DNA of 64,000 bases, from assembly GCA_003024785.1 (NCBI GenBank), contig PUQB01000426.1:153696-217695 (forward strand). The letters run 5' to 3'. Source of the stretch: Selaginella tamariscina (lineage: Eukaryota > Streptophyta > Lycopodiopsida > Selaginellales > Selaginellaceae). Positions 1 through 50,860 of the stretch are shown here, piece after piece. How positions within the stretch are numbered: position 1 is the first letter of the stretch; the number at the start of each line of letters is the position of its first letter. The position numbers and the translations under genes were made by a program. The notes beneath the pieces are model-generated. The model had not been told where the DNA came from. It made no database searches and saw only the letters and a program-made list of their open reading frames with translations.

Positions 1-689
1 AACTAGCGATAGTCTTCCGACTACTAGGAGACGGCCTCACCTTAGGGGAATGTTTGGACACGAAGATTCAACAGCCCACACCACATGGACCCATGGGCTA
101 CGAGGTATACAAGAAAAGAGAAAGCAGCTGAGTTCATAGGGCTAGTGGCCTTCATGCTTATGGGAAGAACAAGGAGATAATTCACTAGATGGTTGGTGAA
201 CGGTCTCTGCAGGGCTTGGGAAGGAGTCACGATAAATTGGATTGACTGTCTTAAGTAGTACTTGGTTCCGGCTCTAACCAGTGGAATTCACGGAGTTCGG
301 ACTGGGACTGAGCAAAGGCTCTCCACGACCGGCCACATCAATATTATGACCATAGGCTCGTTTGGCCAGACAACAATTAGAGCACCACCACCACTCCAAA
401 CAAGGGACGAAGAACAAAGGAGGAAAAGTTAGTATAACTGTAGGGAATAGCCAGGGTGCTCGGGGTCGACAGAGGAACAGGCAGAGGGTAGCCCCTTCCC
501 TGACCAGGAACCACTAGAGCATGGGACGTCGAAACCCATACACGTGATTCCCCTGGCTGTAGGATCCCCACTACCACCAGAATCCCCGATAGAAACACCT
601 GAGCAATCAACTAGATCCGGCCAGGGAGAAAAGGGAGGCAAGTCTGAGGATAACTCAAAGGGTAACTATCAACATTTCCAGGCCGACGG

Positions 690-4062: not shown

Positions 4063-4678
4063 TGTCATAGTTTTTATTATGATTCGACCCTTTACTTTGG
4101 GGTTTGATTGTTGTTACCTAACGAGATGTGTGACAAACCATAGTTGTAATGAGAAAAGCCCCACTTAGTGCACTTAGGTGTTTAGGGGTAATCCAACTGA
4201 ATGTCATTAGGTACCTTGAGAAACTCTAAGTGAAGGTAATACTTACCTTTTAGAAAACTCTCCCCTAGTTTGACATTACAAGATAGGTTTTTCGTTAAAT
4301 ATAGCTTGTCAAAAAAGGGTTAGATTAGGGTTATGGTTAGGCATCTCATTCGTTAAGGGCTGGCATTTCCGTGCTAGCCCACTTACTCATTTAGGAAAAC
4401 GGGGGGGCTCTGTCACATAATTAAGGTAGAGTATATATAGTGAGGCTTTCTGGGTTCAAAAGAGAGCTCGTTAACCTCTTACTAGTGCAAGCTAAGCTTT
4501 TATCGTCAAGGCACAACCCTTTGTCATGCCGCCCAAACTTTCACATGACATGGGTAACGTTCCACCTTTGGATTAAACTATCCTTATTGTTGACAGGATC
4601 TTGCCTTTGTGGACAGGGGTACATTACTTCCAAGGAGTTAGTCAATTCTTTGGGCCGAAAACTTACTCGCAAGCTTAA
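4063..4678 (+). repeat. Left part of a split gypsy LTR (family A)
   Basis: The segment begins TGTCATAG, the start of the family A LTR, and follows the internal chromovirus sequence and polypurine tract. It matches the reverse complement of the intact LTRs at 28910-29883 and 35203-36146, including the TATATAG motif near 4435, up to CGCAAGCTTAA at 4678. There the 14.86-kb DNA element begins; the LTR resumes at 19540. Confidence 0.9.
4675..4678. repeat. Left target-site copy, TTAA
   Basis: TTAA lies immediately before the terminal repeat starting ATGCA and is repeated immediately after the right terminus at 19536-19539. The restored LTR needs only one TTAA. Because the termini continue with ATGCA, a 5-bp TTAAA reading with slightly asymmetric ends is equally compatible. 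Confidence 0.8.
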
Positions 4679-4705
4679 ATGCACGTTGTAACTAAAGTGG
4701 GCATG
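4679..4705 (+). repeat. Left terminal inverted repeat
   Basis: It matches the reverse complement of 19509-19535 at 25 of 27 positions; the differences are at positions 6 (C/A) and 19 (G/A). Both ends are followed inward by AT-rich DNA with GAATATT and ATTAAT motifs. Confidence 0.85.
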
Positions 4706-4964
4706 ATACGTGAAAATGGGAATATAAATAAATTACTAATTAATACTTAAGTTTTAATTATTAATTAATCATTAATTAATATGTAATTAAGCCTTAAATA
4801 TTAATTAATTAATTAATTAATCCTTCAATAACCTTACTTAGTAAGGAATATTCCTAAAATATCTTAGAATATTCATATTATTCTAAAAATAGTTTACAAT
4901 AATGAAGAAATACTATCAAACATAATTACAAATGAAATCATTTTCTTATCAACATGTTAATTTT

Positions 4965-6330
4965 TTATAAATACTTTCTTTCTATCATACAAAGAAATCT
5001 TTTTATTTTGTCTAAATCATCACTCTCCGGATTAATCTCATTTTGGTCAATATCTTGATGTTGTTGCCACCACTTAACACTCTCACGAATGCAATTGGAG
5101 TTGCCATCCTTTGTTAATACATAAGATGTGATAAGAGAAGGTCTGCATAAAGGCTCATCTAAAAACTGACGTTCCTTAAGAAAATAATATATAAAGCGCC
5201 CGGTTGCTATCCTTCATTTTATAAAATTCAATATCACGAGAAAGAAAAAGCTTCAGGAAATGTATGATACGTTGGATACTGCTCACAAAAATTTTCGAGA
5301 TTCTTCTTTCTTGAGGCACGTATCCAAGTAGTTCACTAGCTCATCCATGATATCGGTATCAGAATATGGATCGAAAGTGATTGGATGAATACAAGCAATG
5401 TTTTGGTTGAGCATAGCCTTCTGAGGAGAGTCGTCTACTACTAACATCTGTGCGTTCTTCATTATCCTTAAGCGACTGATCTCCCCATGAGTCCCAATTA
5501 TTCTTTCATTCTTGAAGAAGTATGGCTTGCTTTCCTTTCTTATATTCTGAAATTCGAGAGGTTTATGACACATTCGCTGGTCAAAAATCCAATCTTTACG
5601 AATCACCTCTTCTGCAACACTACAATGTTTCTTAAGTAAACTCAACAGCGGTGTTAAGTTATGAATCTGCATGCATGACCAAATCCCCACAAGCGCACCC
5701 ATCTCCTTAAGCTTTTGAAAGAGACGATCCAACCCTGGACGAAAAATAATATCATATCGAAATTTACCATGACAAGGAATGAAATCTCCTTGTTTGATTT
5801 CTGTTTTTCTATCCTGGGGCCTTTGTCGATGAAGCAGAACACCATTGACATCCAACAACACAATATGGCCATGAGTAACATGAGAGCGTTGCCTCTTGAA
5901 TACTTTGCAAATCACTTGTTTGCTCCCTTTCACATTTATCCGTTGCCACTATCTCGTTGCCTATCCCTTCATCATTTAATTGTACATCATCCTTACAAGA
6001 TTCAGATATTGCATGCGCTGAAGAAATTGATTTCGGAACTGAAGCCAATAAAAATGATGATGAAGTGGCCCCCATGGTAACGATGTTTTGAGCTGCATTA
6101 TTATCCATTTCCTGCATGAACTCTGTCATTCTGACATGTGGCACAAGAAATTGTCGCCAAACCCCTCTCTTACCTCATGGCAATGCTGAAAATCCATGTT
6201 CTCAATTATTTCATTACATCTGCAAAATGATAATTAGCTGACCTTAAAATTATCAAGGTATATTATTTACCTTGTTAATGTGTGACCCATGTTTGAACTA
6301 AAAGCTTCATTAATCCTTGAGAATTTATTT
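4965..6330 (-). CDS. FCP1/NIF-like (HAD) phosphatase, frame-broken
   Basis: The 5283-5933 part encodes a near-complete FCP1-like HAD phosphatase domain: LLDVNGVLL (motif I), RPGLDRLFQKL, LVGIWSCM, and MLVVDDSPQKAMLN (motif IV). Such enzymes dephosphorylate Ser/Thr, often on the RNA polymerase II tail. The second aspartate of motif I (DxD) is asparagine here, as in a plant DLNG-type subgroup, so activity is doubtful. An upstream exon in another frame starts at 6144 (MPHVRMTEFM). Short introns are plausible: a donor GTAAAT near 6270 with acceptor TTTTGCAG near 6223, and GTAAGAG near 6175. Below 5283 coding text continues in shifting frames (EQYPTYHTFPEAF, SLITSYVLTKDGN, DLDKIKRFLCMIERK) to a stop at 4965-4967. 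The shifts fall largely near base runs, so either decay or assembly error is possible. It is cargo of the giant element, in tandem with the next gene. Confidence 0.7.
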
Positions 6331-6401
6331 TCTGTACAAATATAAAAGAAATATACAAAAATGCCTTATGTTACACTCATTTACAACTATTCGTCACTCT
6401 A

Positions 6402-9400
6402 TCAATTCATTATCAATTCTTCTTCGCTATTACCTTCTGAGTGAGGCGAAGAAGGTCTAAGCCGCTTGTGAGATGGTTCAAGATCTTCTGCATCTTCTAT
6501 TGATGTTTCCATGGGTCCTGGAGTGTGCGAATGTTCTGTACTCCTCGAGATAACTTCCGGTCTAATATCTGATTGAAGTTCGTTCTCAGACTCCGAGATT
6601 GAACCAGATTCACCTTCAGAGCTATCGCACTTATCTGGAGGGAACTTTCTCAAATACGCCTTTATGGAATCGTTGGGGTACTCAGTTGAGACCCAATCTA
6701 TCCACTTGTTCAGGTCCTCAACCATGGTCTTATCCTTTTCAACGGCAAACACACATGTATGCCGAAGGTAACACTCCTTCAAGACGGACCCCCTAGTGCA
6801 GTAGTCAAAAACCCACGCATCACTGTGAGGACCCCTAATCAAGTTGACGATGCTCCGTGCCGCTTGACTTGTAATGTTTGGATAACGTACATTGTCGAAT
6901 ACGTCACTCATACCTATCGGTGTATCGGATGGAGGTTCAGGGCCGTTGGAGTGCAAACAGATGCCTGGCCAGTCATTTGGAAGCTTGAAATTGTTTGGCG
7001 CATTCCTAACAACCAAGTGAACAACGGTATCAATGCACTTGGGATTAGCATCGTTCATATAAAATCCTGTCCAACGATGTCTATTCTTCTTGGCGAAGGC
7101 GAAGGCAAAAGTATCGGTGACATGAGCAAGAATCAAGAAATAAATACCTGAAAAAGTAGGTATCAGTGAAGAGCGCAAGCATGAATTCAATAATAAATAC
7201 CTTCTATGTATATGCTTGCACGGCTAAGTTTCTCCACCAGATCCTCTAGTGCCCTATCTGTCGAAAGATTTTTTGACACCCGCCGATCCATCACGAACAA
7301 TTGAAACGGTTTCCTACAAGCAGTGATGTTACCCCATAAAGTCTCCGAATCTAACAACAAACATCTGTAGGGCTTGTCGTGATTTGTAGCATCCTCCTTT
7401 ATAAGGTTCAATTCGGTTCTCCGCTGCTGAAGGACTGCCATAAGAGAAGGCGTCATCCCAATGTTCTCCTTTTTGGCGTTGGCGTGCAATAGATTCTTGC
7501 CCAGATCTTCCGATTGGTTCACCCATTCGACAAGCATATCATCGTTCGTCACATGCAAATATTTGCTGACCTCTTCATATGTTGAAGTCGAGGTCCAACC
7601 CAGTTTGTGGCAGTGTATTCCCAACCACTCCTTGAAATGCCTGACCGTCTTCAACTCCATTGCCTTGAGATGAAAAGGAGAGGTTGGGCTGCTGTTATTA
7701 ATTTGTAGTTTGCCATCGATCACCAAATCAGCCAAGACTTCCATCTCCTCCATCGTTGTTCCATTTAAAGGCTTCAACCATGTGAGCTTGAAATCGTTGT
7801 CTACATCCTTTGTAGATTGAACAGACTTAGCCTTCGGCGTCTTACTGGGTTTCTTTGCAGACTTTTCTGAGGGCTCCCCTTCACTTGTCTGCTTCTTCTT
7901 CAGTGTTCCTTTTGAAAAGGATTCCATAATCCCCAACCATTTGGCAAAGATCTTATCTTCGGGGCAAGAAATCAACATCATCAGAAAGGATGTTTCCTTC
8001 CCGCCCACCTGGGCAAAATCAACTGCTGCAATTTCTTCAACTCTCTGAGGAAAAAGACAGATTAATATACCGGCGAGATAAATCCCGCCCAAACAATTTG
8101 CTTACCCGGTATTCCGCAGATTGTGTATTCCCTGCGGTAGCTCTTTGTGGTCGCTGAAGAGATTCCCACACGGCTCGCGTGTGTTTAAACTTCTCCCATA
8201 TTTTGCTGTTGTAGTGGTTGGTGTCGGCAGCGTCCCATTCCGCCGATAACTTATGGTACTGCTCGATTGTGAGATTCGGCTTAGCTAAAAACGCCGATCT
8301 TTTTGTCAGCTTCTCACGGGTATGCTCGGAAAGTTTTGTTGCCATCGTTCCTTTGTTGTGTTCCTCGAGAAGTCGTTGGGCTGCCGTTATTGTGTGCTGG
8401 CCACTAATGATGTAGTACTTGATAGATTTTTTATTCTCCGTCTGAATCTTCATGAGTTGTTCTGGTGTTGTGATCCAGACTTTGTCAGCGCCCTTCCTTC
8501 TTTCATAGTATGGACACAAAACAGCATTATGTGGAACGGTATAAGAATTGTCGTCCTTCATCTTCTCCATGAGCTCAGCTACACGTTCCTGGTTGAGTGG
8601 CCTGTAATTGAAGTTTGGGTTGACGCTGCAATATTTAACCCTACAAGGATAAATCTTATCATCCAACATCATTTCCTTGTGACTTATTGCAGCATGAGAT
8701 GCCACAGGTGCAGCTGACAAAACGATTGATGATTTTCTTTTGCGATCCGAATCAACATGTGTGATCCCCGACTGCAGCTGTTCTAGTGTTCTCGGTACAC
8801 TCTTCCAGCTCCCAAAGCTCCCTAAGCAAATTGAACGTGATCTGTAGAGAACCTGAGACCGAGCCACCCTCTCAATCTCCATTATGATGTCGCTGTGTTC
8901 TTCTTCAATGTGAAGAGGGACGATTGCTCCACTTGCTGATTTTCTGTATTGTGAAGCAATATCTCCTGACAATACACCTACTCGATGAGTCTGAAGATTT
9001 TCGAAGTAGACATCCAGATGGATCCCCTCCATAGATGGGCTTTCGTTGAGTTGAAGAAGAACTCCAAGGTCAACATCATTAGTGAACACGTGAACGTCAT
9101 TATCCACAAGTCGACAAAACCACCCGAAATTAATGTTGTAACTGACGACCTCTGGATCCGAGAACGTGACATTGGATGGAACAAGGCATATGTGTCGAGC
9201 ATCGTCCAATCTGGGTTCGCAGCCTGCTTTCGGGTGCTTGACTAGCGAATCTACTTTCCATTGTTTTGCTTGTCCATGAGATGTGACAGAGGTTAATTTG
9301 ACAGCAGCCATGGTTGCTCCAATGCGCTTCCCATTTATCTTAAAATATGGCCAAGTTGATTCCAGAATCCCCCTGCCCATCTCTTCTCCTGCTCTTGTCT

Positions 9401-9507
9401 TTAATGTCACCTCAATTCCACATCTGAATACAAAAATGATTAGTTCAAGTATCCGAGTATAACAGATTTTATTTTAATTCTTACCCAGAATTTGACGACG
9501 ACTCCAT
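6402..9507 (-). CDS. ParB-like / DNA-methyltransferase-like fusion, 4 exons
   Basis: Exons (complement) 9485-9507, 8106-9423, 7201-8044 and 6402-7147 join at GT-AG introns of 61, 61 and 53 bp into 2931 bases, an uninterrupted 976-residue frame. The start was chosen as the ATG in the first exon (MESSSNSG). Residues ~263-360 resemble a ParB/Srx N-terminal domain: RPLNQERVAELMEKM, then IISGQHTITAAQRL, where G-Q-H stands for the usual G-x-R/H nucleotide-binding motif. Residues ~671-870 resemble a permuted N4/N6 adenine/cytosine methyltransferase: FLILAHVTDTFAFAF, then DYCTRGSVLKE and AVEKD as the SAM-binding motif. The expected DPPY/DPPW motif seems replaced by DSET at ~679, so catalysis is doubtful. 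A Lys/Ser/Pro-rich linker (~500-540) and an acidic Ser-rich tail (~885-976) flank the domains. ParB-methylase fusions are known in bacteria and phages; the plant form is inference from motifs. The open frame contrasts with the broken neighbours. Confidence 0.8.
8070..8091. repeat. Palindrome-type motif inside an intron
   Basis: The 61-bp intron 8045-8105 of the ParB-like gene contains a near-copy of the palindrome, CGGCGAGATAAATCCCGCC, differing from GGCGGGATTAATCCCGCC at two or three positions. It links the gene physically to the palindrome family clustered just upstream. Confidence 0.75.
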
Positions 9508-9649
9508 ACTAATGACTCGATCTCCTTGTTTGATCAAATCGTCCTTCTGCAAAATAATACACTATAAATATAAATTATATAAAAACGCACACACACTTGT
9601 ATAAACCCGAATATACAAAAATAATACACAGAGAGAAGTAGACGTAATT

Positions 9650-9736
9650 AACTGTCCGAAGCTCACATTTGTGTTAGTGCAAAAGAAAGATAACATTTCG
9701 TTTTAGAACCACCACAAATGTGAGCTCTGGACAGTT
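9650..9736. repeat. 24-bp inverted repeat, loop of 39
   Basis: Arms 9650-9673 and 9713-9736 pair at 22 of 24 positions (the arm core is GCTCACATTTGTG). It lies just upstream of the first recognised exon of the ParB-like gene. It could be a foldback insertion or a structured leader; nothing decides which. Confidence 0.7.
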
Positions 9737-9839
9737 TTACATAGATTCCTAGCTTTTACTCGAAATATTATGATAAGATGATAAAAGTAAATAAAATGAG
9801 ATATGCAACTTATATATACTAATACACATATATATTCAC

Positions 9840-11470
9840 ATGGAAGGTGCGGCGGGATTAATCTCGCCACCCCTTCAATGCCTCCTGAAAGAGTGGGCGG
9901 GATTAATCTCGCCACCTTTCTGGAGGCCTTGAACGGGAGTGCGGAATTAATCTTGCCACCCTTCTCGGTTTCAGAGAGAACTGGGCAGGATTTATTTCTC
10001 ACACCCCTTCAGTGACTCCAGAAAGGGGCGGGATTAATCTCGCCCACCATGTAAGTGATGGTTAAATGAATTTCCCCACCCTTCCCAATTCTCTCCATTG
10101 GTATGTTGAAAACCTTCTACGTCTCAGACAGAAACGTTTGGGATTGGTCCGACTCACCAATGGAGAAAAAAGGAAGGGTGGCGGGATTCATTCCTCCAAC
10201 AGGCATTGAAGACTCGGCGGGATTAATCCCGCCGCCCAGGGCCTTCACTCGGTCCCTATGCGGCGGGATTAATCCCGCCGGACGCCAATTCCCTGCGCGG
10301 AATCGGGCGGGATTAATCCCGCCGCCTAGGCACTTCAGGCAGGCCAATGGCGGCGGGATAAATCCCGCCCGATTCCGCCAGGGCATGCGTACGCGCGAGA
10401 TTAATCCCGCGTCCCAGGCCCTTCACTCAGGCCTTAGTCGGGATTAATCCCGCCGAACGCCAATGCCCTGTGCGAAATCTTGCGGGATTAATCCCGCCGC
10501 CTAGGCCCTTCAGGAAGGCCAATGGCGGCGGGATAAATCCCGCCCGATTCCGCGCAGGGCATGCGTACGCGGCGGGATTAATCCCGCCCACCATGTAAGG
10601 GATGGTGAAATTAATCCCACCACCCTTCTCAGTTCCCTCCATTGGTATTTTGTAAACCTTCTCCGTCTCAGACAGAGTTAGTCGGGATTGATTCAACATA
10701 CCAATGGAGGAAAAAAAGAAGGGTGGCGGGATTAATCCCGCCACCGGGTAATGAAGGTTCGGAGAGACTAATCCCGCCGCCCTCTCGTAAATCATGCGCT
10801 CACACATATATATTGGCTGCGGCATTTTGAACAGGGATGGGTGGGGGCGGGATTAATCCCGCCGCTTATATCCTGCGGAAGTGCCTGAGCGGCGGGATTA
10901 ATCCCGCCGCCCTCCGCGAAGGGCATGAGCGTGGGGCCGGATTAATCCCGCCGTTCATGTCCTGCGTGAATTCCCTGGGCGGCGGGATTAATCCCGCCGC
11001 CTTACGCGCAGGACATGTCATGCAGGCTCTTCGGTTAGCCTTCCGTGCAGGATCTTTCATGCAGGCTCTTCGGTTAGCCTCATGAGCGGCGGGATTAATC
11101 CCGCCGCCCATCCCCTGTAAATGCCCTGCGCGGAATCCGGCGGGATTAATCCCGCCCATTAGGGCCTTCACACAGGCCATTGCCGGCGAGATAAATCCCG
11201 CCGCATTCCGCGCAGGGCATGGGTGAGCGGCGGGATTAATCCCGCCGCCGAGGCCCCTCACGCAGGCCATGGGCGGCGGGATTAATCCCGCCGCTCTTCG
11301 GTTTGTCGTAGAGCGGCGGGATTAATCCCGCCGCCCATAGCCTGCGTGAAGGGCCTCGGCGGCGGGATTAATCCCGCCGCCATGGCCCCAACCATATAGC
11401 GGCGGGATTAATCCCGCCGCCGAGGCCATAAACCTATAGCGGCGGGATTAATCCCGCCGCTCGAGGGGCT
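9840..11470. repeat. Cluster of ~25 copies of an 18-22-bp perfect palindrome
   Basis: The core GGCGGGATTAATCCCGCC equals its own reverse complement, and many copies extend to a 22-bp palindrome with outer GC pairs. About 25 exact or slightly changed copies are spaced roughly 35-90 bases apart, facing the upstream side of the ParB-like gene. Common variants are GATAAATCCC and GATTAATCTC. Spacers form larger units: 10028-10215 and 10568-10755 are direct repeats, each holding a foldback around CCATTGGTA, and 10320-10395 recurs at 10497-10570. Open frames here (GGINPA repeats on both strands) are artefacts of the palindrome. No gene is seen. Confidence 0.95.
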
Positions 11471-11536
11471 GCGAGAGATAAAATTAATAAATAAAAAAAT
11501 TATACAGATAAAAACACACACATATATATATGTGTG

Positions 11537-11567
<31 letters not shown>

Positions 11568-12202
11568 GTATGTATAGGAGTGTACGTGTGTGTGCAAGAG
11601 ATAGATAAATAAATAAAATTATACAGTACTGGTACACATAATATATGTGTGTACATAGGTATATATATGTGTGTATATGTATATCGTGTGTATGCGTGTG
11701 AGCGAAACAAATAAAATCATACAGATAAACAAACACACACACACACATATATATACACAGGAGTGTGCGTGTGTGTGCGAAAGATAAAACTAATAAATAA
11801 ATAAAATTATACAGATAAACACACACATATATATGTGTGTATATAGATATATAATCCATAGAGAAAGAGAGAGAGTCTGTGAATATATAAGCATATATAT
11901 AAACTAGTGTTGTATGTATGTATATATGTATATAGGTATATATATATGTGTATATGTATATTGTGTGTATGCGTGTGTGAGCGAAACAAATAAAATCATA
12001 CAGATAAACAAACACACACACACACACACATATACATACACAGGAGTGTGCGTGTGTGTGCGAGAGATAAAACTAATAAATAAATAAAATTATACAGATA
12101 AACACACACATATATATATGTGTGTATATAGATATATAACCCATATGAATATATAAGCATATATATAAACTAGTGTTGTATACTATTTGTTAATATGCAT
12201 TG

Positions 12203-12247
<45 letters not shown>

Positions 12248-12514
12248 GCAGTGTGCGTGTGTGTGGGAGAGATAGATCAATAAAAAAAAATTTACAGATA
12301 CTGGTACACATAATATATGTATGTATATATGTATATAGGTATATATATATATGTGTATATGTATATCGTGTGTATGCGTGTGTGAGCGAAACAAATAAAA
12401 TCATACAGATAAACAAACACACACCCACACACACATATACATACACAGGAGTGTGCGTGTGTGTGCGAGAGATAAAACTAATAAATAAATTTATACGCAC
12501 ACTCCTATACATAT

Positions 12515-12545
<31 letters not shown>
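11470..12545. repeat. Microsatellite-rich tandem minisatellite
   Basis: TA and TG runs are embedded in a longer unit that includes AGGAGTGTGCGTGTGTGTGC and AATAAATAAAATTATACAGAT. The unit recurs near 11575, 11757, 12040 and 12445 with variable length. No coding sequence is credible here. Confidence 0.85.
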
Positions 12546-12598
12546 GATCTCACCTGTGTGCACAGCCGCCGCCGCCGATTTCACAGCCGCCGCCTCTT

Positions 12599-13515
12599 GA
12601 AACCCTAAGAATATACCTAAACCCTAAAGGAATTAAATATATATATTAACCCTAATAGAATATTCCTTCTGAGAATATACTTAAACCCTAAAAAGAATAA
12701 AATATAGATTCGCCCTAAACGAATATTCTTTCATTATATTATTAGCGTGCGTGTGCGTGGGTGTATCACATACACCCCAAAAATATAAATCATGCAGGGA
12801 TTTAACATGTGTGTGTCCATGAGAGTGTTAAAGTTTCATGTGTATCAATACATACATACACATTGCATATATTAATACACATAATATATACATACACACG
12901 TGTATACACACAGACATACATACATATTACATGGGTTTAGGGTTTAGGGTTTAGGGTTTTGGATTTAGGATGGATCATGCATGGTGTGTATGTATGAGAG
13001 AAGAGAGAGTGTTGAAAAATTATTTTTGTACACATTGCATATATTAGTACACATATATACTTACACATATTATACACAGATATACATACATAGTATATGA
13101 GAGAAGAGAGACAGTACATATTATGGATCATGCATGGTGTGTATTATACACACAGACATACATACATATTAGTACATAATATTGAGAGACCGAGTACATA
13201 TTATAGATCATGCATGGTGTGTATGTTTGAGAGAAGAGAGACAGTACATATTAACATGGATCATGCATGGTGTGTATGTATGAGAGAAGACAGAAAGTAC
13301 ACATATATACATACAGAGTACACATATATACATGCACACGTGTATACACACAGACATACATACATATTACATGAGTAAATTCATTGTGTTACATATTAGG
13401 GTTTAGGGTTTAGGGTTTAGGATGGATCATGCATGGTGTGAAGAGAGAGTGTTGAAAAATTATTTTTGTACACACATGTATACACAGGGTTTAGGGTTTA
13501 GGGTTTAGGGTTTGC
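12599..13515. repeat. Telomere-like TTTAGGG runs in repeated DNA
   Basis: Short uninterrupted runs of the plant telomere unit occur at 12933-12960, 13398-13420 and 13487-13513, with AAACCCTAA motifs near 12600-12630 on the other strand. Between them a unit containing GATCATGCATGGTGTG and AGAGAAGAGAGA recurs about four times (near 12970, 13126, 13206, 13258 and 13424). The whole lies inside the giant element, so it is interstitial. Confidence 0.85.
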
Positions 13516-13756
13516 TCCCAACAAGCTTAATATAAATATTACACATGTAAATTCAATGTGTTACATACACACAGATTGAGTACATATATCATACATGCGT
13601 TGAACATGATGTTTTCAATAAAGAAGCAACATATTTCTTCTTAGGGTTGTGCATGTGTGTGCATATGTGTTTTTGTAAGTTCTTGTAATGCGTGTGTAAA
13701 TTTATGATTGTGTTTATATATGTGTGCAAAACAAACATCGAATAATTAAGAAAATA

Positions 13757-14183
13757 ATATTAATAAACACACTATGAACATATTTTAAATTATACATAAT
13801 AATATATGATTTTATCTAATATATAGCCATATATAGTTTTAATAATATATATTAATTTAATATTGATAAAAAGGTTTAACATTGAAATATTCTTGAAATA
13901 ATAAGAAATTAATTGAGAAAATCCCATTAATATATACAAATGTAAATTAAGTACTCAAATAATTAACTAAATTAATTATCATAATCATGTTTAATATTGG
14001 AATATTCTTGGAATAATAAGAAAATAATAAAGAATATCCCATTAATATAAAGAAGATTAATTACTCAAGTAATTAAGGAAATGATATTAATATATATATT
14101 ATTAAAACTATATATGACTATATATTAGATAAAATGATGTATTATTATGTATAATTTAAAATATGTTCATAGTGTGTATTAAT
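13757..14183. repeat. AT-rich inverted repeat
   Basis: About 13757-13852 and 14083-14183 are reverse complements with few differences, including CACACTATGAACATATTT against its complement. A third partial arm lies near 14430-14480. It resembles a foldback or MITE-like insertion. The interval 13600-14640 is otherwise AT-rich with no gene seen. Confidence 0.7.
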
Positions 14184-14748
14184 TTAATATTGATAATAAG
14201 GTTTAACACATGAATATTCTTGAAATAATAACAAATTAATTGAGAAAATCCCATTAATATATACAAATGTAGAATAATTACTGCAATAATTAAGAACAAG
14301 ACTAATTTAATTATGATAATCAGGTTTAATATTAGAATATTCTTCAAATATTAATAAAATATTAAAGAATATCCCATTGATACTAGGAAATGAAAACTAA
14401 ATACTCGAGTAATTAAGAAAATAATAATAATAAACAGACTATGAATATATTTTAAATGATACATAATAATATATCAATTTATTTATTGTATAAGTATATA
14501 TTTATATATATATATAATATAAATATACTTGAATACTAAGAATGTAGAATATAGTCTAAAATTTCGTAATATTAAACAGCTTGAATCACTTGAATAACAT
14601 TAAATGCAATTTTAAAATACTCATTGGAACTGGAGAGTATATATGTCAGAGTGTCGGATATTTGTGTCAACTCATCTTAAATTTTATTTTCTGTTCTTTT
14701 TAAAAATTTGAATTTCTGACATATGTATTGTCGGTCTGACATGTAAAT

Positions 14749-14940
14749 TTGAAAATGCATTTAATTTCCCACTCAAATTCAGATCTGGTTCTTTCTCCGG
14801 CAAGGGTTTCTTCATTTCTGTATTTTTCACTCTTTAGATCTTCTTTTTTCTTCATAGTGATCATCTCAGGAGCGAGATTAAATTGGGTGCTATTCTTTAT
14901 AGGAAAGCACGGCGCCTTCAGTGCTGTTTACAAGTAAGTA
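14749..14940 (+). pseudogene. Possible protein-kinase exon fragment (Gly-rich loop)
   Basis: The frame ends FIGKHGAFSAVYK, matching the kinase ATP-loop pattern GxGxFxxVYK except that the second glycine follows an inserted histidine. It is followed at once by GTAAGTA, a strong splice donor. No other kinase motif follows, because palindrome cluster two begins within 170 bases. It may be a host exon captured by the element. The match is short, so chance is possible. Confidence 0.3.
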
Positions 14941-15094
14941 TTATAAACAAATTTAAAAATACTTATAAAGATTCACTCTCTTACATTCTCTCTTAAAATT
15001 ACAATTTAGGGGTTTAGGAATGCATTAGGATTATAATATATTCCGTTAGGGATTTATCCCGTTTAAATATCCTTTTAACTTAATATTCTAGGTT

Positions 15095-15790
15095 AACCGG
15101 GGCGGCGGGATTAATCCGGCCATTTCTTTTTCGCCTCTTCGAAGAGGTGGCGGGATTAATCCCGCCACCATCTCTCGGGCAATGCTTCTCCGCCACTGAA
15201 AAAGAGTGGCGGGATTAATCCCGCCGATAACCTTCTCAACTGATGAAGAGTTACCAGAATTTATTAGAAAGAGTTGTCGGCGGGATTAATCCCGCCAACC
15301 ATTTTAGGAGGCAGGGAAGGGGTGGCGGGATTAATCTCGCCACCACATCCCTGTTTTAAGGATTTGGGGACAGGATTTATCCCGAGATCTCTTTGAAATC
15401 ATAGTTTTGGAGAGAGTTATGTGCGGGTTTAATCCCGCCACCCATTCCCCGTCGTAAGAATTGTGGGCGGGATTAATCCCGCCTTGGACTCCCTCCGACA
15501 AGGAAGAGCCGGCGGGATTAATCCCGCCGCCTCTTCTCCTCGGGGGAGTCGGCGGGATTAATCCCGCCGACTCCTTCTCGTCGGAGAGAGTCGGCGGGAT
15601 TAATCCCGCCGGACCCCCCGAGGAGGAGAGCGGCGGGATTAATCCCGCCGGCTCTTCCTTGTCGGAGGGAGTCCAAGGCGGGATTAATCCCGCCGACTCT
15701 CTCCGAAGGGGTTGAGTCGGCGGCGGGATTAATCCCGCCGACCGTTCCTCGTCGGAGGGATTCGTGGGCGGGATTAATCCCGCCCATCAG
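15095..15790. repeat. Second palindrome cluster with a 229-bp hairpin
   Basis: About 15 copies of GGCGGGATTAATCCCGCC or close variants lie just upstream of the transposase-like gene. From 15466 to 15694 they form a large hairpin: arms 15466-15529 and 15631-15694 are perfect 64-bp reverse complements, spacers included, and the 101-bp loop is itself imperfectly self-complementary. Confidence 0.95.
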
Positions 15791-15938
15791 TTGTATTAAT
15801 CAAACATGAGATATTATCTTTAAACATAATTATGTATTATTGCATATGCATATTATTAAGTAACCGTAATTCAGATTTCTTAGAAATATTGCATAAACAG
15901 ATATCATAAATAATACAATTATTTATGTGCAAGACAAT

Positions 15939-18900
15939 ATGTTTAATACTGGAGATAAAGTATGTCTTCTTCGGAACAACGAGATAGTTGGCACTGGAAC
16001 TGTGGAAGTTCGAGATAATAATGCATCATGTCACAATATTGCCCAAGGATCTTGTGTGTACGTATGGGTGAACACCATTTACAAGCATGTTGAGGTTCTG
16101 GGAATGGAATTTGAGGAGGGTTCTCCTGTATTGTGGAATTTGAATGAAGTCAAGGCTGACACAGAATATGCAGAGTCACAAACAAATAGTAGCACGAGTT
16201 TACCAGATGATGGCTTGCCTGCTGTGATGGATGAGGTGATTCTCTTTCTTCGTGAGATTGAAGTCGGAAGAGGCATCATCACAGCTATAAATCCAATGGA
16301 AGCAGTGTCAGAAGAGAACTAGGGTCCGACTTCGTGGGTGTAGTTGTGACAGAGGTTTTCACCTAATGGCACATTGTATCCTGGATCCCTCGTGAGGTGC
16401 GAACATCTGAATTAAGACAGCAAGATGGTTCAACATATTCTGGGTTGGATTTCAATAATAACAACCCGGAAGAACAACTCATTTTGAAGAGGTTCCTTGC
16501 ATTGGTCCTATTGTAAGAAAAGGCGATTCATGGGTTGTAGATCTTCCCCTGCAAGTTTCAGCAAGAGGGTAAAGATGGATCCTACATCTTCCGAAAGTGT
16601 TACGAGCATTTCCACGATTGACTGTTGCAAGAAGAAGTGTTGTCAGATGGCAGACCGGAATGAAATTACCCAATGTAGACATGTCTTTCGTATGCTCACC
16701 CAAAAGCAAAGCATGAGTTTGTATATGCTGCACTAACTGGGTGTATGATGGAATGGCCTCGGACACAGGTTATCAGAGTACATCCATGGTATTTAATAAG
16801 GTGGCCATCTGCTTCAAAAGCTTGGTACAGTTATACGGGATCCCAAAGACCACGTTCTACCGTCGGAGGGATGAGTGGCTAGATGGAGCGCAACCTCAGT
16901 TCATGGGAACACTCGCTTGGTCAAAACCCGCTCTCACATCATGGCAGCCATAGAGTAAACTCAAGGCTTTTGTGGAAGCAAATGCAACAGGATGCCTCAC
17001 AAATGCCGAACCACAAATGCAGGGGTCAGGGAAAATCTCAAGGTTTTACCTTCAATCTACACTCAATTGAAACTGTGTGAACATGTGAACAAGTGCCTCA
17101 GTTTGATGGGGCTCCAAGCAATCTGCACTGGTACCTTCAACAACATATGGAATACTCATTTTAAGGATGTGGAGATTGCAAAACACTCTAGCTTTTCTAA
17201 GTGTGACACTTGTACATCATTGAAGGCTGCAGAGGCTTGTGCAAAAACTTGGTGGAGATCACTACCATTCAAAGAATGGAGGCCCACATGATTGCACAAC
17301 AAACTTGCCGGTCTCAGTACTATGCACACCGCATGCTTTCTGTGTCACGCCCATCAGAGTACCTGTGCTTGATCCATGACAAGATGGATCATTCAAAGAC
17401 CAGCATTCCAAAGCTCTTTGCAACACCAAAGTGCCTTGGAAATGTCATGAAACTTCCGATTTCATTGACAGTGTGCTAACAATGGACACGGTTTGTGAGT
17501 CATATGGACACTTTTCACTTCCACATTGGTCTAGCGACTCCAATTTCACTATTGGGTCGTTAGCCATGTGTTTCAGAAACCTTGAAGCCCACTCACAACA
17601 AGTCCTATCAGTGATCTCAAAGTGAAGAAACAACACCTTCAACCTTTACATAATGCTCTCATGAACACATCTGCACTTGAGGCTACTTGGGAATATGAGA
17701 GGCATTGTCAGCAACCTGCACAAAAAACAGATGGCCCTGTTGAGAGTTCAGGTTCAGTGGAGGGATCTAGCTCAAATAGTGTACATGTGTCCTCAACATC
17801 AAATAAGCTTCCTCGTCATTTGCTTTTACAGATGGATAATTGTGCAGGCGAGAACAAAAATAGGTAAATCATTTTACTTAAGGGTTTCTCAAGCTCATAC
17901 TTACTTTTATTTTCTAGATATGTGCTAGCATACTTGTCAATGCTTGTTGCCAAAGGTGTGTTTGAAACAATCACGCTCAGTTTCCTTATGGTTGGTCACA
18001 CTCATGAAGATATTGATGCGTTTCAGCAAGGTCTCCAACTCTACAAAAAGGACAAGTGCACTTACCTTACCGCATATGATGAATCTTTTTGAAAATTGCA
18101 TCTCCAAAAAAAGTTGTGCTTTGCTTGTGACTGAGGTGCCAGACTTCAAAAAATTCTCAAGGAGTATATAAAAGAAGGGAGTGATTGTTGGTCACCTTGT
18201 GCCACTACAATTCTTTTCTCCATACGAGATGGTATACCTATTGCAGTACAAGTTACGGCCATCAGAGCAGGAGTGGTTACCGAAAGAGGGCTTAATGCTC
18301 TTCAAAAGTGGAGAGGATGGAAAGCCACTTCTCCCAGAAGGACAACCAGACCCTATTCCATTGAGTGCCCAGCTCAAGGAACAAGAGGTTATTATTGATG
18401 GCATCAAAAAATATGTGGCATGGGTTCAAAAATCGATGCCAAAGAATTCTGATAAGGCAACTGGTTACTCAGAATTAATAAGCATGTGGTCAACTATTGG
18501 GAGACTGTTGTTCGAGAGTTGGAAGGGCCTACTGTCACAAGTACAGAATTGCAACACCCTTTCTGGCCTAAAACAAGGTGGCGAGAGGAGATTGAAATGA
18601 CATCACTGAGCATAGACGACATAGAAGCCAGTAGTGATGTGGAAGTGCAAACCCCACACTTTGTTGGACAAAGGAACCAAAAACCTAAAGCATACTTTGA
18701 TTGCTGCAAGGATCTTCAAAAACTAATGATGGTTCTCATTACTCCAGATGCGTCATATAATCAGCCTATTTGGATGGGTCAAATTATCGACACACCTGAA
18801 GTAATCACAAAAAATAGTATTGTTAAGGTTGCATGGTTCAAACCACAAAAAAGGCGACACGAGAAGGAGAGCGAAAGATATAATGGATGCCTAGAGAAAA

Positions 18901-19050
18901 CATGGTCTCCCAATCAAAAAGACCCAGCATGTTTTAAATGTTAAATCCATTCGATATGGGTGGATGTCAAGAAGCGTTGATAAGTCACGATTAACAAAAC
19001 TGCAAGGGAATGTATGTTTTCTGAAGCTTAAAGCAATTACAAAATTATAA
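15939..19050 (+). pseudogene. DUF7869-type transposase-like gene, decayed
   Basis: The gene reads, across several frames, from MFNTGDKVCLLRNNE (15939) to a stop at 19048-19050. Motifs in order are: a Cys-rich stretch CCKKKCCQ (16620), an HTH-like piece YGIPKTTFYRRRDEWLDG (16836), KCDTC (17200), IHDKMDHSK (17371), a probable core MDNCAGENKNRY (17832) and GHTHEDIDAF near 17998, and a C-terminal QGNVCFLKLKAI. The DNCxEN...GHTHEDID pattern is what I know from DUF7869-type proteins of mosses, algae and cnidarians, thought to be transposon-derived. A 44-bp GT-AG intron (17874-17917) splits N-K-N-R/Y. Frame breaks and stops (near 16320, 16500, 17080, 17480 and 18110) inactivate it. As the only transposase-like gene in the element, it is the probable mobility gene; catalytic residues are inferred, not shown. 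Confidence 0.7.
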
Positions 19051-19508
19051 AATATCATATATTTAATATTCATAATTATTATAACTCTTTAATAATAGTA
19101 CCAAATTGTATACTTAACTATATAAATTTAAAAAATGATATGGAAGATTGACTATATTATTATAGGATTTATTATATATTATTACTACTACAAATTTTTA
19201 ATTAATAATGTTATATTTAAATATTAATATTTTAATAACAACATCAATATTTATATAATGTACCTCTTATGCTCTTCCTTAATTGTTATATTAGGCAATA
19301 TATTATATAATTTAATACATTCTACTTTTATAATGTTATTAATTTTTGTTCAATGAATGTTATAATTTATTAAAGGGTAGAATACAAAATAGAATATTCT
19401 AAAGAATATTCTCTTTTCAAACATATATTCTAAAGAATATTCCTTTAATATTAGAAAATGCTAATTAAATAGCTAAAATTGCTAATTATTAGGAAATGGG
19501 ACTATAGC

Positions 19509-19535
19509 CATGCCCATTTTAGTTACAACTTGCAT
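19509..19535 (-). repeat. Right terminal inverted repeat
   Basis: It pairs with 4679-4705. The last 35 bases (19501-19535) are identical to 28044-28078, the right end of the second copy, which confirms this as the true terminus of a repeated element. Confidence 0.85.
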
Positions 19536-19539
19536 TTAA
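19536..19539. repeat. Right target-site copy, TTAA
   Basis: It duplicates 4675-4678. The LTR continues with AGGCATTGC, where intact family A LTRs have an equivalent sequence. Confidence 0.8.
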
Positions 19540-23524: not shown

Positions 23525-24690
23525 GTGTATCCTATAAGTCGTATCTTGTAAGCATATCTTGTATTTTGTATTGGGTCGTGACAGCACCTCCTCCTTAAGA
23601 ACGTGGTTTAGCAGGATAATGTTGATGGAAGGCAGTAGCAACCTTGGAAGAAGCGTGGAGTAAATTAGACACAGGTTTTTAATGCAATTGGTAGGCAATA
23701 ACCTTTTCAATCCACTAGTATTAACGATGAAGATGAGAATCAAGGATGGCTACAACTTCATACTCAGGTTCATCATCAATGACCACAGGAGGAAAAGGAG
23801 AAGAAATATGACCAAGAAGAGAAGAAAGATGATACGGTTCCAACAAAGGGGTCTGAAACATAGGATAGAGTGTCATAGTAGATGGTAGCTCTAGTCGGAA
23901 AGCTATAGGATTGACCTTAGTTGCAATCTTGTAAGGGCCCAATCATTAAAAATCCAGCTTAAAAGAAGGCCTGTTGGTGCAAATATGCCGACAAAGAAGC
24001 CACATGAAATCACCAATTTTGTATGCATGTGTCGTCTGATGATGAGTATTAGCGTGACACTTGTACCATTTTTGTGCTTGCTGAAGATGAATTCGGAGAT
24101 CATTTTGTACTTAACAAAGATGCTAAAGACGATCCTGTATTGCAAGAGCGGAAGAAGGAAAAGCATGAGGAGTAAAGTCAAAATGTGGATGGTAACATGT
24201 AAGAGCGAAAAACATGTGTCTAGCCTGTAAATGCATGAACGGAGTTGTTGTAAGCAAACTCCACTATAAAAAGAAGGTCCAACCAGTTGTCCTATTGGTA
24301 ACTGATGAAGCAGTGAAGATACTATTCCAAGGTCTGAATCATGTGTTCTGACTGCCGTGGATGATATCCTGAAGAAAAATCCGCTTTAACTTATAAACTC
24401 TGGAGAATTCTCATCAAAATCTAAACATGAATTGTGGACCTCGATCAAAAACAATGCTCTTAAGAAGACCATGAATTCGGAACTTCACGGATCACCAATT
24501 CAACAATTGTCTGGCAGTAGCTATCTTGTTACATGGGTAGAAAATAAGCATGTTGGTGAAACGGATCTCCAAGAGCAGAGGGAACATGAAAAGGACAAAG
24601 AAGACCAGAGGGCGCGTGACGAGGCATCTTTGACCTATTGCAGGTGTCACAACTCTGTACAAACTTTTCCACAAAACCTCGCAACCCATG
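23525..24690 (-). pseudogene. Gypsy fragment: LTR end, chromodomain, integrase end
   Basis: On the minus strand this gives integrase C-terminal and chromodomain text (GPYKIATKVNPIAFRLELP, then EPEYEVVAILDSHLHR) near 23721-23942. At 23525-23583 is the end of an LTR (TCGGG-like GTCGTGACA) and a polypurine tract. It matches 48920-50180 of the complete gypsy element. It stops abruptly at about 24690, where the second transposase copy begins. Frames are broken throughout. Confidence 0.8.
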
Positions 24691-24699
24691 TCATCAATG

Positions 24700-27600
24700 A
24701 ATACCATTACAAGCATGTTGAAGTTCGGGAATGGAATTTGAGGAGGGTTCTCCTGTATTGTGGAATTTGGATGAAGTCAAGGCTGACACAGAATATGCAG
24801 AGTCACAAAAAGTAGTAACATGAGTTCACCAAGATGATGGCTTGCCTGCTGTGATGGATGAGGTGATTCTCTTTCTTCATGAGATTGAGGTTGGGAGAGG
24901 CATCATCACAGCTATAAATCCAATGGAAGCAGTGTAGAAGAGAAACTAGGGCCGACTTTGTGGGTGTAGTTGTGACAGAGGTTTCACCTAATGCAATTGC
25001 ATCCTAGATCCTTCGTGAGGTGGCGAACATCTGAATTAAGACAGGAAGATGGTTCAACATATTGGATTGGATTTCAAATAATAACAACCCGGAAGAACTA
25101 CCCATATTTGAAGAGGTTCCTTGCATTGGTCCTATTATAAGAAAAAAGGCAATTCATGGGTTGCAGATCTTCCCTTGCAAGTTTCAGCAAGAAGGTCAAG
25201 ATGGATCCTATATCTTCCGAAAGTGTTACGAGCATTTCCACGATTGACTGCTGCAAGAAGAAGTGTTGTCAGATGGTAGACCGGAATGAAATTACCTAAT
25301 GTAGACATGTCTTTTGTACGCTCACTCAAAAGCAAAGGCATGAGTTTGTATATGCTGCACTAACTGGGTATATTGATGGAATGGCCTTGAACACAGGTTA
25401 TCAGAGTACATCCATGGTATTTAATAAGGTGGCCCATCTGCTTCAAAGCTTGGTACAGTATTACGGGATCTTTAAGACCATGTTCTACCGTCGAAGGGAT
25501 GAGTGGCTAGATGGAGCGCGAACCTTAGTTCTTGGGAACACTCGCTTGGTCAAACCCGCTCTCACATTATGGCAGCCATAGAGATACTCAAGGCTTTTGT
25601 GGAAGCAAATGCAAACAGGATCTTCACAAATGCCGAACCACAAATGTAAGGGTTAGGGAAAATCTCAAGTTTTGCCTTCAAACTACACTCAATTGAAGCT
25701 ATGTGAACATGTGAACAAGTGCCTCAGTTTGATGGGGCTCTAAGCAATCTGCACTGGTACCTTCAATAACATATGGAATACTCATTTTAAGGATGTGGAG
25801 ATTGCAAAACACTCTAGCTTTTCCAAGTGTGACACTTGTAAATCATTGAAGGCTGCAAAAGCTTGTACAAAAACCTTGGTGGAGATCACTACCATTCAAA
25901 AGAAGATGGAGGCCCACGTGATTGCACAACAAACTTGCCGGTCTCAATACTATGCACGCCACATGCTTTCTGTGTCACGCCCATCAGAGTACCTGTGCTT
26001 GATCCATGACAAGATGGATCATTCAAAGACCAGCATTCCAAAGCTCGTTGCAACACCAAAGTGCCTTGGAAATGTCATGAAACTTCCGATTTCATTGACA
26101 TGTGTGCTAACACATGGACACAGTTATGAGTCATATGGACACTTTTCACATCCACATTGGTCTAGCGACTCCAATTTCACTATTGGGTCGTTGGCCATGT
26201 GTTTTAAAAACCTTGAAGCCCACTCATAGACAAGTCCTATCAGTGATCTCAAAGTGAAAAAACAACACCTTCAACCTTTACATAATACTCGCATGAACAC
26301 GTTTGCACTTGAGGCCACTTAGGAATATGAGAGGCATTGTCAGCAGCCTGCACAAAAACAAATGGCCCTATTGAGAGTTCTGGTTTAGTGGAGGGACTAG
26401 CTCAAATAGTGTACATGTGTCCTCAACATCAAATAAGCTTCCTCGTCATTTACTTCTACAAATGGATAATTGTGCAGGCGAGAACAAAAATACTTGTTAA
26501 TGCTTGTTGCCAAAGGTGTGTTTGAAACAATCATGCTCAGTTCCTTATGGTTGGTCACACTCATAAAGACATTGATGCATTCTTCAGCAAGGTCTCCAAC
26601 TCTACAAAAGGACAAGTGCACTTACCTTACCTCATATGATGAATCTTTTTGAAAACTGCATCTCCAAAAAAATTTGTGCTTTGCTTGTGATTGAGGTGCC
26701 AGACTCCAAAAATTTCTCGAGTATATAAAGAGGGGAGTGATTCTTTAGTTGGTCACCTTGTGCCGTTACAATTCTTTATCTCCATACGAGATGGTATACC
26801 TATTATGTAGTACAAGTTACGGCCATCAGAGCAGGAGTGGTTACCGAAAGAGGGCTTAATGCTCTTCAAAAGTGGAGAGGATGGAAAGTCACTTCTCCTA
26901 GAAGTACAACCAGACCCTATTCCATTGAGTGCCCAGCTCAAGGAACAAGAGGTTATTATTGATGGCATCAAAAATGTGGCATGGGTTCAAAAATCGATGC
27001 CAAAGAATTTAATAAGGCAACTGGTTACTCAGAACTATATAAGCATGTGGTCAACTATTGGGAAACTGTTGTTCGAGAGTTGGAAAGGCCTACTGTCACA
27101 AGTATAGAATTGCAACACTCTTTTTGGCCTAAAACAAGGTGGCGAGAGGAGATTGAAATGACATCACTGAGCACAGACGACATAAAAGCCAGTAGTGATG
27201 TGAAAGTGTAAACCCCACACTTTGTTAAACAAAGGAACTAAAAACTTAAAGCATACTTTAATTGCTGTAAGGATCTTCAAAAACTAATGATGATTCTCAT
27301 TACTCCAAATGTGTCATAAAATCAGCCTATTTGGATGGGTCAAATTATCGACACACCTGAAGTAATCACAAAAATAGTATGGTTAAAGTTGCATGGTTCA
27401 AACCACAAAAAAGGCGACACGAAAAGGAGAGCGAAAGATATATGGATGCCTAAAGAAACCATGGTCTTCCAATCAAAAAAACCCAACATGTTTTATAAAT
27501 GTTAAATTCATTCGATATGGGTGAATGTCAAGAAGCATTGATAAAGTCACGATTAACAAAACTGTAAGGAAATGTATGTTTTTTGAAGCTTAAAGTAATT

Positions 27601-28078
27601 ACAAAATTATAAAATATTGTATATGTAATATTCATAATTATTATAAACTCTTTAATATAGTACCAAATTGTTTACTTAACTATATAAATTTAAAAACGAT
27701 ATGGACTATATTATTATAAGATTTTATATATTATATATATTATTAATAGTACAAATTTTATGTTATATTTAAATATTAATATTTTAATAACAACATTAAT
27801 ATAATGTACCTCTTAGCTCTTCCTTAATTGTCATATTAGACAATATATTATATAATTTAATACCTTTTACTTTTATAATGTTATTAATTTTTGTTCAATC
27901 AATGCTATAATTTATTAAAGGGTCGATTACAAAATAGAATATTCTAAAGAATATTTTGTTTTCAAACATATATTCTAAAGAATATCCTTTAATATTAGAA
28001 AAGCTAATTAAATAACTAAAATTGCTAATTATTAGGAAATGGGACTATAGCCATGCCCATTTTAGTTACAACTTGCAT
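24700..28078 (+). pseudogene. Second, 5'-truncated copy of the DUF7869-type element
   Basis: This direct repeat of about 16070-19535 carries the same motifs (KCDTCKSLKAAKAC near 25818, IHDKMDHSK near 26003, an MDNCAGENKN-like stretch near 26460) and the identical right terminus at 28044-28078. The 5' part, with the palindromes and cargo, is missing. Where the first copy has its intron, this copy has lost about 60 bases that include the intron and adjoining exon bases, so it is a deletion and not a spliced retrocopy. Numerous stops make it non-functional. After the terminus comes TAGTTT, not TTAA. Confidence 0.85.
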
Positions 28079-28084
28079 TAGTTT

Positions 28085-47319: not shown

Positions 47320-47545
47320 CCAAAAATGACATCAATAGGATTAATCTTGCTCAGGCCTGCTCCCAAAAAATGGGCATCAGTGGGATTAATCCTGCCGAGC
47401 CTTCTCACCAACAATGGGCATCGGGAGGCTTAATCCCGCTGAGCCTTCTCACCAACAATGGGCATTGGCGGGATTAAATCTCGCATACCCCTTCTCATCC
47501 TCCTTGAACCTTTGCAGGATAAATTTTGCCACGTTTTAATAACCT
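47320..47545. repeat. Decayed palindrome cluster
   Basis: Five degenerate relatives of the palindrome occur (TAGGATTAATCTTGC, GTGGGATTAATCCTGCC, GAGGCTTAATCCCGC, GGCGGGATTAAATCTCGC, and a weaker one), separated by CTTCTCACCAACAATGGGCAT spacers. It lies outside the giant element, so the palindrome family is dispersed. Confidence 0.8.
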
Positions 47546-49199: not shown

Positions 49200-50860
49200 T
49201 TCATTATCAATGATCATAGGAGGGGGAGGAGAAGAAGCACGACTAGGAAGAGAAGAAGATGATACGTTTTTAACAAAGAGGTGTGAAACACATGATGAAG
49301 TTTTATAGAAGATGGTAGCTCTAGTCAGAAAGCTACAGGATTGACCTCAGTTGCAATCCTGTAAGGGCCCAATCGTTGAAAATCCAATTTCGAAGAAGGC
49401 CTACTGTGCGAATATGCTGACGAAAAGCCACACGAGATCACCAATCTTGTATGCAGGTGCCGGCTGATGATGAGCATCAGCATAATGTTTATACCGTTCT
49501 TGTGTCTGCTAAAGATGAACTTGGAGATTATCTTGTACCTGACGAAGATGCTAGAGACGATCATGTACTGCAGGAGTGGAAAAAGGAGAAGCATGAGGAG
49601 CAAGGTCAAAACGTGGATGGTAGCCTGTAAGAGAGAAGGAAGGTGTCTGGCCTGTAGATGCGTGAACAGAGTTGTGTTATAAGCAAACTCCACCATAGGA
49701 AGAAGGTCCAACTTGTTGTCCTATTGGTAACGGATGAAACAGCGAAGGTACTACTCCAAGGTTTGAATCGTGCGTTCTGACTGCCTATCAGTTTGCGGAT
49801 GATATCTTGAAGAAAGATCCATTTTAACTTGTAGACTTCGGAGAAGCTCTCGCCAAAACCTGGACATGAATTGTGGGCTCGATCAGAAATAATGCTTTCA
49901 GAAAGACCATAATGTCGAAACTTCGCGAATCACCAACTCAACAATTGTTTGGCTTGTAGTCCTCTTGTTACATGGTAAGAAATGAGCCTATTTGGTGAAA
50001 TGGTCAACCATCACAAGGACTGCATCAAATCTACGAGAAGGAGGAAGATTTGTGAGGAAATCCATAGAAATGGACCTCCAAGGAGTAGAGGGAACAGGAA
50101 GAGGACGAAGAAGACTAAGAGCAGTGATGAGGCATCTTGACTTGTTGCAAGTGTCACAACTCCGTAAAAACTTTTTCACAAAAGCTCGTAACCTAGGCCA
50201 CCAATAGTTGCGAGTCACCAACTCAATTGTCTTGGCCACACCAAAATGTCCTGTAGCCAGGGTAACATGAACAATCCTATACCACACGAGTCCTGCAAAC
50301 ACTAACAGGAATGTACAAAAGACCTTCCCGGTACAGGAGTCCGTCTTGTATGGCAAACAACTTGTAGTTTGTACGGGAATTGGAGGAAGAGGAACTTGTG
50401 ATGTCAGGATTAATGTGTGAGAACACATTCTTTGCCAAGTCGTCTGTAGCCAACTGCAAACGAATGTCTTGTAAAAGTGTTGAGTTTGTTGGAGCCTAAT
50501 GAACCTGTAATGCCATAAGCCAAAATCGATCAGGACCCAACAACACTTGCTTTTGACAATCCTATGCAGGATTGCCCGGGGTCGGTGCAAGGTAAGAGCG
50601 CTTAGACAATGCATCTGCTTTGCCATTCCAGAAACCAAGCCTATAGATGATGACAAAATCAAAACGTGATAAGAATTCCGCCCAACTAGCTTGTTGCCAA
50701 CTGAGAACTCAGCCATTTGAAAAAACTCCAAGTTCTTGTGATCCATAAGAACTTGTACAGGATGTGTAGCACCTTTTAGGAAGTGCCGCCACTTCTCGAA
50801 TGAATCTACAATGGCCTTGAGTTCCTTATCATGAATCTCATAATTGATCTCCATCGAAAG
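49200..50860 (-). pseudogene. Gypsy RNase H end and integrase
   Basis: On the minus strand: ELKAIVDSFEKWRHFLKG (RNase H), then GHFGVAKTIELVTRNYWWPRL and SCDTCNKSR (integrase zinc-binding region), then SMDFLTNLPPS and VLVMVDHFTK (start of the catalytic core). Further on are LLPMVEFAYNTT and LGPYRIATEVNPVAF. Frame breaks occur between these blocks. Confidence 0.85.

Follow-up and report, generated by a model that had tools for sequence, protein, structure and literature searches.

What moves a 14.9-kb block of DNA that interrupts a long terminal repeat (LTR) in the lycophyte Selaginella tamariscina, and what might the genes and repeated palindromes inside it do? The block occupies positions 4679-19535 of a 64,000-nucleotide stretch of contig PUQB01000426.1 (assembly GCA_003024785.1), hereafter the window. 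It is a real, recently multiplied transposon with accessory genes. It most probably represents a recently amplified family of giant (~14-15.6 kb) cut-and-paste transposons that carry two divergent genes, a phosphatase gene and palindrome arrays; among known kinds, giant Sola-type elements with a ParB-methyltransferase gene are the nearest.

A 14.9-kb transposon and its genomic copies

The element is 14,857 bp long, ends in 27-bp terminal inverted repeats (TIRs) that match at 25 of 27 positions, and has TTAA at both borders (Table 1), as described in an earlier reading of the sequence (the original prediction). The pairing of TIRs and TTAA is not decisive by itself: among the 192,632 possible pairings of TTAA sites across the window, 11 match at 25 of 27 positions or better, several of them being inverted LTR copies or parts of arrays. 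When the terminal 300 bp of both sides were aligned locally, the score was 44 against a maximum of 43 in 1,000 shuffles, a thin margin on score alone. When the flanks were joined with one TTAA, they aligned to paralogous LTR stretches elsewhere in the window that lack the element, in agreement with the predicted rejoining of the host LTR upon its removal. All three LTR alignments among the matches listed span the junction at 83% identity, although small gaps adjoin it in the third, and the empty site in the paralogous LTRs reads CTCAAAG or nearly so. We regard the element as real because of its other genomic copies, which are the decisive proof, rather than because of the TIR and TTAA pair alone.

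We searched the source assembly (300.7 Mb in 1,391 contigs) for these copies. The right 236 bp yielded 40 full-length matches, all at 100% identity after rounding (40 of the 1,030 first-look candidates were scored). The left 222 bp yielded 40 matches at 97-100% identity, 39 of which cover the query completely (40 of 163 candidates were scored). Both sets include the window copy. Twenty other copies were taken from right ends, and the left end was sought within 800 bases at its predicted position. The right end was present in all 20, and both ends were recovered in 11, with end-to-end lengths of 13,831-15,609 bp. Exact 4-bp duplications flank 8 of these 11 copies (TTAA, AAAT, CATT, AAGT, AAGC, TAGA, ACAT and TCTT), an outcome with a chance of about 5e-17 under assumed base frequencies. 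The target duplication is therefore 4 bp long and AT-rich, and its sequence is not fixed.

TTAA had been proposed as the target site. This was ruled out, since TTAA directly follows the right end in only 1 of the 20 other copies and seven other duplication sequences were found; one other copy (L023) has TTAA on both sides. Because the duplications vary in sequence, the TTAA at the window copy is incidental and not the target of the family. The expectation of further full-length copies was thus borne out by the 11 both-end copies, and that of TTAA borders did not prove general. Some copies fit this picture poorly: no duplication was seen at two of the 11 (L035 and L042), a third (L038) is irregular, with an apparent ACGT duplication and one extra base at the element end, and in 9 of the 20 the left end was absent from the stretch fetched. 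A truncated older relative in the window likewise lacks the left end and has a non-TTAA right flank.

When 19 copies were compared with a twentieth across the transposase region, 17 showed 1-12 substitutions and the remaining two 24 and 85. The length of this region is mostly 3.1-3.2 kb, with one copy at 2.2 kb. The family amplified recently. At its right end, the truncated relative is identical to the main element over the 26 terminal bases (at 28053). Its left side (24686-24698) is joined to a repeat, another copy of which lies at 49429-50193 (80-83% identity). Compared with the main element, 114 of its 220 substitutions are C>T or G>A and 42 are the reverse, as expected of old methylated DNA.

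Table 1. Features of the transposon and of its truncated relative, in window coordinates
Feature	Positions	Strand	Details
Target duplication (4 bp), left copy, TTAA here	4675..4678		Exact 4-bp duplications in 8/11 other copies, 7 not TTAA
Left TIR, 27 bp	4679..4705	+	25/27 vs right TIR; recovered in 11/20 other copies
NIF/SCP-like HAD phosphatase open frame, accessory gene	5283..5933	-	PF03031, E 2.3e-12; 5' exons not included
ParB/methylase-like gene, 976 aa	6402..9507	-	Four inferred exons (9507-9485, 9423-8106, 8044-7201, 7147-6402); GT-AG introns
Single 18-bp palindrome	8072..8089		2 mismatches; inside second intron of ParB-like gene
Left palindrome array, 30 copies of GGCGGGATTAATCCCGCC (<=4 mismatches)	9851..11458		Upstream of ParB-like gene; 15/29 intervals 44-46 bp; largely self-inverted
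Right palindrome array, 14 copies	15104..15784		Upstream of transposase gene; 7/13 intervals 44-46 bp; 15423-15738 self-inverted, 87% identity
Putative DUF7869 transposase gene	15927..18941	+	54-nt intron ~17864-17917; many frame breaks in window copy; 660-aa and 392-aa open stretches in another copy
Right TIR, 27 bp	19509..19535	-	25/27 vs left TIR
Target duplication (4 bp), right copy	19536..19539		Border inspection
Truncated older relative: transposase 3' part and right end	24698..28079	+	93% and 92% to 16069-19536

A DUF7869 protein as the likely transposase

The original prediction named a DUF7869-type protein as the likely mover of the element, and the domain search agrees: PF25273 (DUF7869) matched the frame-joined window gene at E 1.2e-35 and the two open exons of another copy at E 2.6e-12 and 1e-26. 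It was the only Pfam domain at E <= 1 in the long frames of the transposase, and no piggyBac-type transposase domain was found there. The closest named transposase homologues are from one liverwort and one moss. DUF7869 was not found by name in the literature searched. Of 180 pattern matches to DUF7869 in viral contigs, none was confirmed, and 3 of 68 were confirmed in genome contigs. In Tubulanus polymorphus, protein P0096 combines DUF7869 with a protein-kinase domain.

In the transposase gene of the window copy, the count of frame breaks ranges from 8 to 13 and that of stops from 1 to 4 according to which guide protein is used. Alignment to another copy revealed only 14 substitutions but 22 gap runs, of which 17 are a single base long and 10 of those fall in homopolymers, and open stretches of both 660 and 382 residues occur in 2 of the 20 other copies. 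Judging by this pattern, assembly error is as likely a source of the frame breaks as decay. Because the one-base gaps, often in homopolymers, look partly like assembly errors, we make no claim about truly dead genes in the window copy. The idea that the accessory gene is intact while the transposase decays was dropped on the same gap pattern and on frame-breaking indels in the ParB-like gene of other copies.

A structure model of a relative suggests that the DUF7869 protein has tandem Tudor/Agenet-like domains, an integrase-like core and a BAH-like domain. Two results count against this reading: the fold comparison gave Z < 8, a range that can reflect a common arrangement, and Foldseek returned no match at E <= 0.001. 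With VIA-align, Mos1 was the only transposase among the best 50 matches listed, a result that excludes nothing. The DUF7869 protein is likely a DDE-type transposase that would bind the TIRs and join the element's ends to target DNA at positions 4 bp apart, and its Tudor/Agenet-like and BAH-like domains would likely dock it on host chromatin.

Accessory genes and palindrome arrays

Multi-exon cargo genes and palindrome clusters had also been predicted inside the element, and both are present (Table 1). The exons of the accessory gene for the 976-residue protein were inferred from open frames and GT-AG borders. Its frame is intact in the window copy and carries frame-breaking indels in all six fully covered other copies. 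As to the proposed identities, that of the phosphatase stood, on the match to PF03031, and that of the ParB/methylase-like protein is statistically unconfirmed, with no library model and weak profile scores.

We compared this protein with profiles from 10 phage proteins, 4 of which served for the methylase part. The motif IISGQHTITAAQRL aligned with IIAGHTRLKAAELL of phage ParB at a score of 13.8, compared with a maximum of 11.7 for reversed windows, and the methylase motif I region aligned in the right register with the phage enzymes at a low score. The ParB-like and methylase-like motifs follow the order of permuted N4/N6 methylases. These alignments lend weak support to a ParB/methylase-like identity, against which several results count. 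No Pfam, NCBIfam or PHROGs model names ParB or methylase domains in the protein, and searches of protein, phage and PDB sequences returned no relative. The best ParB-scoring window (196-325, score 14.6) lies in a register other than that of the motif, and the methylase score of 20.0 barely exceeds the reversed maximum of 19.1. DPPY, the usual methylase motif, was not seen by eye, MDRR standing in its place. The structure model of exon 2 failed, with a predicted local distance difference test (pLDDT) score of 33. As a Tudor domain, the N-terminus was the best of 16 windows and gave a weak match (E 0.017).

The transposase and ParB-like genes are divergent, and one array of an 18-bp palindrome, GGCGGGATTAATCCCGCC, lies upstream of each. 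We counted 27 exact sites and 44 with at most four mismatches (30 + 14), and 22 of the 42 intervals between neighbouring sites measure 44-46 bp. Shuffled sequences contained no site at three or fewer mismatches, and the window outside the element holds three weak matches. Both arrays recur in all 20 other copies, where near-identical copies carry 11-18 sites in the right cluster and 3-28 in the left; clusters were split at the largest gap, and some left clusters are cut by the end of the stretch. Information content is ~1.5-2.0 bits per position within the 18-mer and at most 0.64 bits outside it, a contrast that is partly built in because sites were chosen by likeness to the 18-mer. The spacers are less conserved than the 18-mer and often recur as reverse complements. 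In viral contigs, the one exact match to the palindrome was a single phage site, which we take as chance. Hypomethylation of the arrays is not supported, as the observed/expected CpG ratios of the spacers (0.65 and 0.78) fall inside the outside-window range (median 0.47, 95% 0.87).

The DNA between the arrays contains a large TATG/CA-type microsatellite block with a 165-nt repeat in three copies (11480-12560) and short stretches of TTTAGGG, the telomere repeat of plant type (12936-13510; 9 in the element and 10 elsewhere in the window). Outside the element, two weak, diverged palindrome matches with 3 and 4 mismatches occur at a spacing of 44 bp (47379-47440) and are perhaps the remains of another array.

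What might read these sites? Our proposal is that the palindromes are recognised by the ParB/methylase-like protein, which would then mark both promoter/intron regions or hold them open. Through such recognition, both divergent genes might escape silencing. We put this forward tentatively and with less assurance than the role of the DUF7869 protein, its standing being slightly lowered by the weak, off-register profile scores.

Alternatively, the palindromes could be sites for the transposase itself, for assembly or autoregulation. This is a serious possibility, if short of an even chance. It draws on an unrelated 4.3-kb contig (L002) that encodes a DUF7869 protein 52% identical to one from Physcomitrium. 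Near this gene lies a different palindrome, TTTAGCTCGASTCGAGCTAAA, with 7 sites at five or fewer mismatches compared with none in 30 shuffles, the pattern having been derived from the contig itself; three good sites precede the gene and four with 4-5 mismatches follow it. No ParB-like gene was found on this contig; however, the contig is short, element ends were not identified on it, and such a gene may lie beyond it. The arrays of the Selaginella element, moreover, are internal rather than subterminal, with one site inside an intron of the ParB-like gene. On the basis of L002, a single further contig, DUF7869 elements more widely may have family-specific palindromes. L003 and L004, the two other contigs that contain DUF7869 relatives, showed no 21-base palindromes of the L002 kind. 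The end of L004, which is labelled Bacteroidetes, consists of two copies of an 89-bp repeat (4929-5162), each with two shorter, imperfect palindromes.

The arrays could also act as RNA or arise passively, as hairpins in 5' regions or introns that inverted duplication has spread, in which case no protein would be dedicated to binding them. Strong predicted folding of the right array as a transcript (z -27 vs 20 shuffles), the inverted recurrence of spacers and the variable number of sites between near-identical copies are consistent with this view. However, the 18-mer is much better kept than its surroundings, which argues for selection on the 18-mer, within the limit on that contrast given above. 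We consider this account rather doubtful.

Finally, the accessory genes could be captured host genes that serve no function for the transposon, as in Pack-type cargo. Phosphatases of the NIF type are common in eukaryotes, and a role in transposition would be conjectural. However, the ParB-like gene is present in all 8 other copies retrieved over that region (two covered only in part), and the phosphatase, at 98% identity, in 2 of 2 looked at. Furthermore, ParB-methyltransferase genes have been published for other giant algal transposons, as described in the available text of PMC12477816. Capture of host genes is therefore improbable.

Relation to known transposons

The element most resembles Sola1-1_Ec32 from Ectocarpus, which the available text of PMC12477816 describes as a 21.5-kb Sola-1 transposon that encodes, on the other strand from its transposase, a 1104-residue ParB-like/DNA-methyltransferase protein. 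The two share giant size and a ~1000-residue ParB/methyltransferase protein opposite the transposase, with weak domains here. They differ in host lineage and in the phosphatase and palindrome arrays, neither of which that text mentions. It also describes ParB-methyltransferase accessory proteins in transposons of green and red algae, which may bind and modify their own transposon; compared by description only, the methylase motif here looks degenerate. Sola2-Fanzor elements, according to the available part of PMC3627910, have 4-bp AT-rich duplications (AWWT and similar), TIRs of 12-21 bp and a Fanzor passenger. The Selaginella element likewise combines 4-bp AT-rich duplications, TIRs and a passenger gene; unlike in those elements, the passenger is not Fanzor, the TIRs are 27 bp long and the duplications are not confined to AWWT-like sequences. 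Target duplications of 4 bp, as in Sola elements, are found at the window copy and at the 8 copies described above. By layout and 4-bp duplications, rather than by transposase sequence, the element fits nearest to giant Sola-type transposons with a ParB-methyltransferase gene.

A TTAA-specific element of the piggyBac or Kolobok kind with cargo, suggested by the TTAA flanks of the window copy and L023, is refuted by the target duplications, and the sole Pfam match of the transposase frames also counts against it, so that we give it almost no credence. The piggyBac likeness is limited to TTAA as a flank of the window copy, with a different transposase domain, and Kolobok elements duplicate TTAA, whereas the duplications here vary.

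In Arabidopsis, VANDAL elements of the MULE superfamily encode the anti-silencing protein VANC and have a non-palindromic motif. Our proposal resembles VANDAL/VANC in that a self-encoded protein would act on short repeated motifs in the non-coding DNA of the element; it differs in superfamily, in an unrelated protein and in the palindromic motif. In its full form, the proposal is of a self-marking transposon with its own palindrome-reading ParB/methylase-type chromatin protein and two fast-evolving banks of sites at promoters. Each related family would have a private palindrome and so mark only itself, and a transposase with Tudor/Agenet-like and BAH-like domains would read the resulting chromatin state. 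Taken whole, we consider this scheme unlikely, if worth stating.

As far as the literature was searched, some of it available in part, three things are new: the explicit palindrome arrays, the presence of a phosphatase, and a DUF7869 element whose ends and duplications have been mapped. The widespread, unnamed domain DUF7869 is thereby linked to a transposon whose termini are defined and whose target duplication is 4 bp, in a family young enough to be active. For the giant algal ParB-methyltransferase transposons, binding or modification of the own element has been suggested, and the available text of PMC12477816 names no DNA site. The element described here offers an explicit candidate, one 18-bp palindrome that occurs 44 times in two arrays and again in 20 of 20 other copies, which makes this idea directly testable by binding and base-modification mapping.

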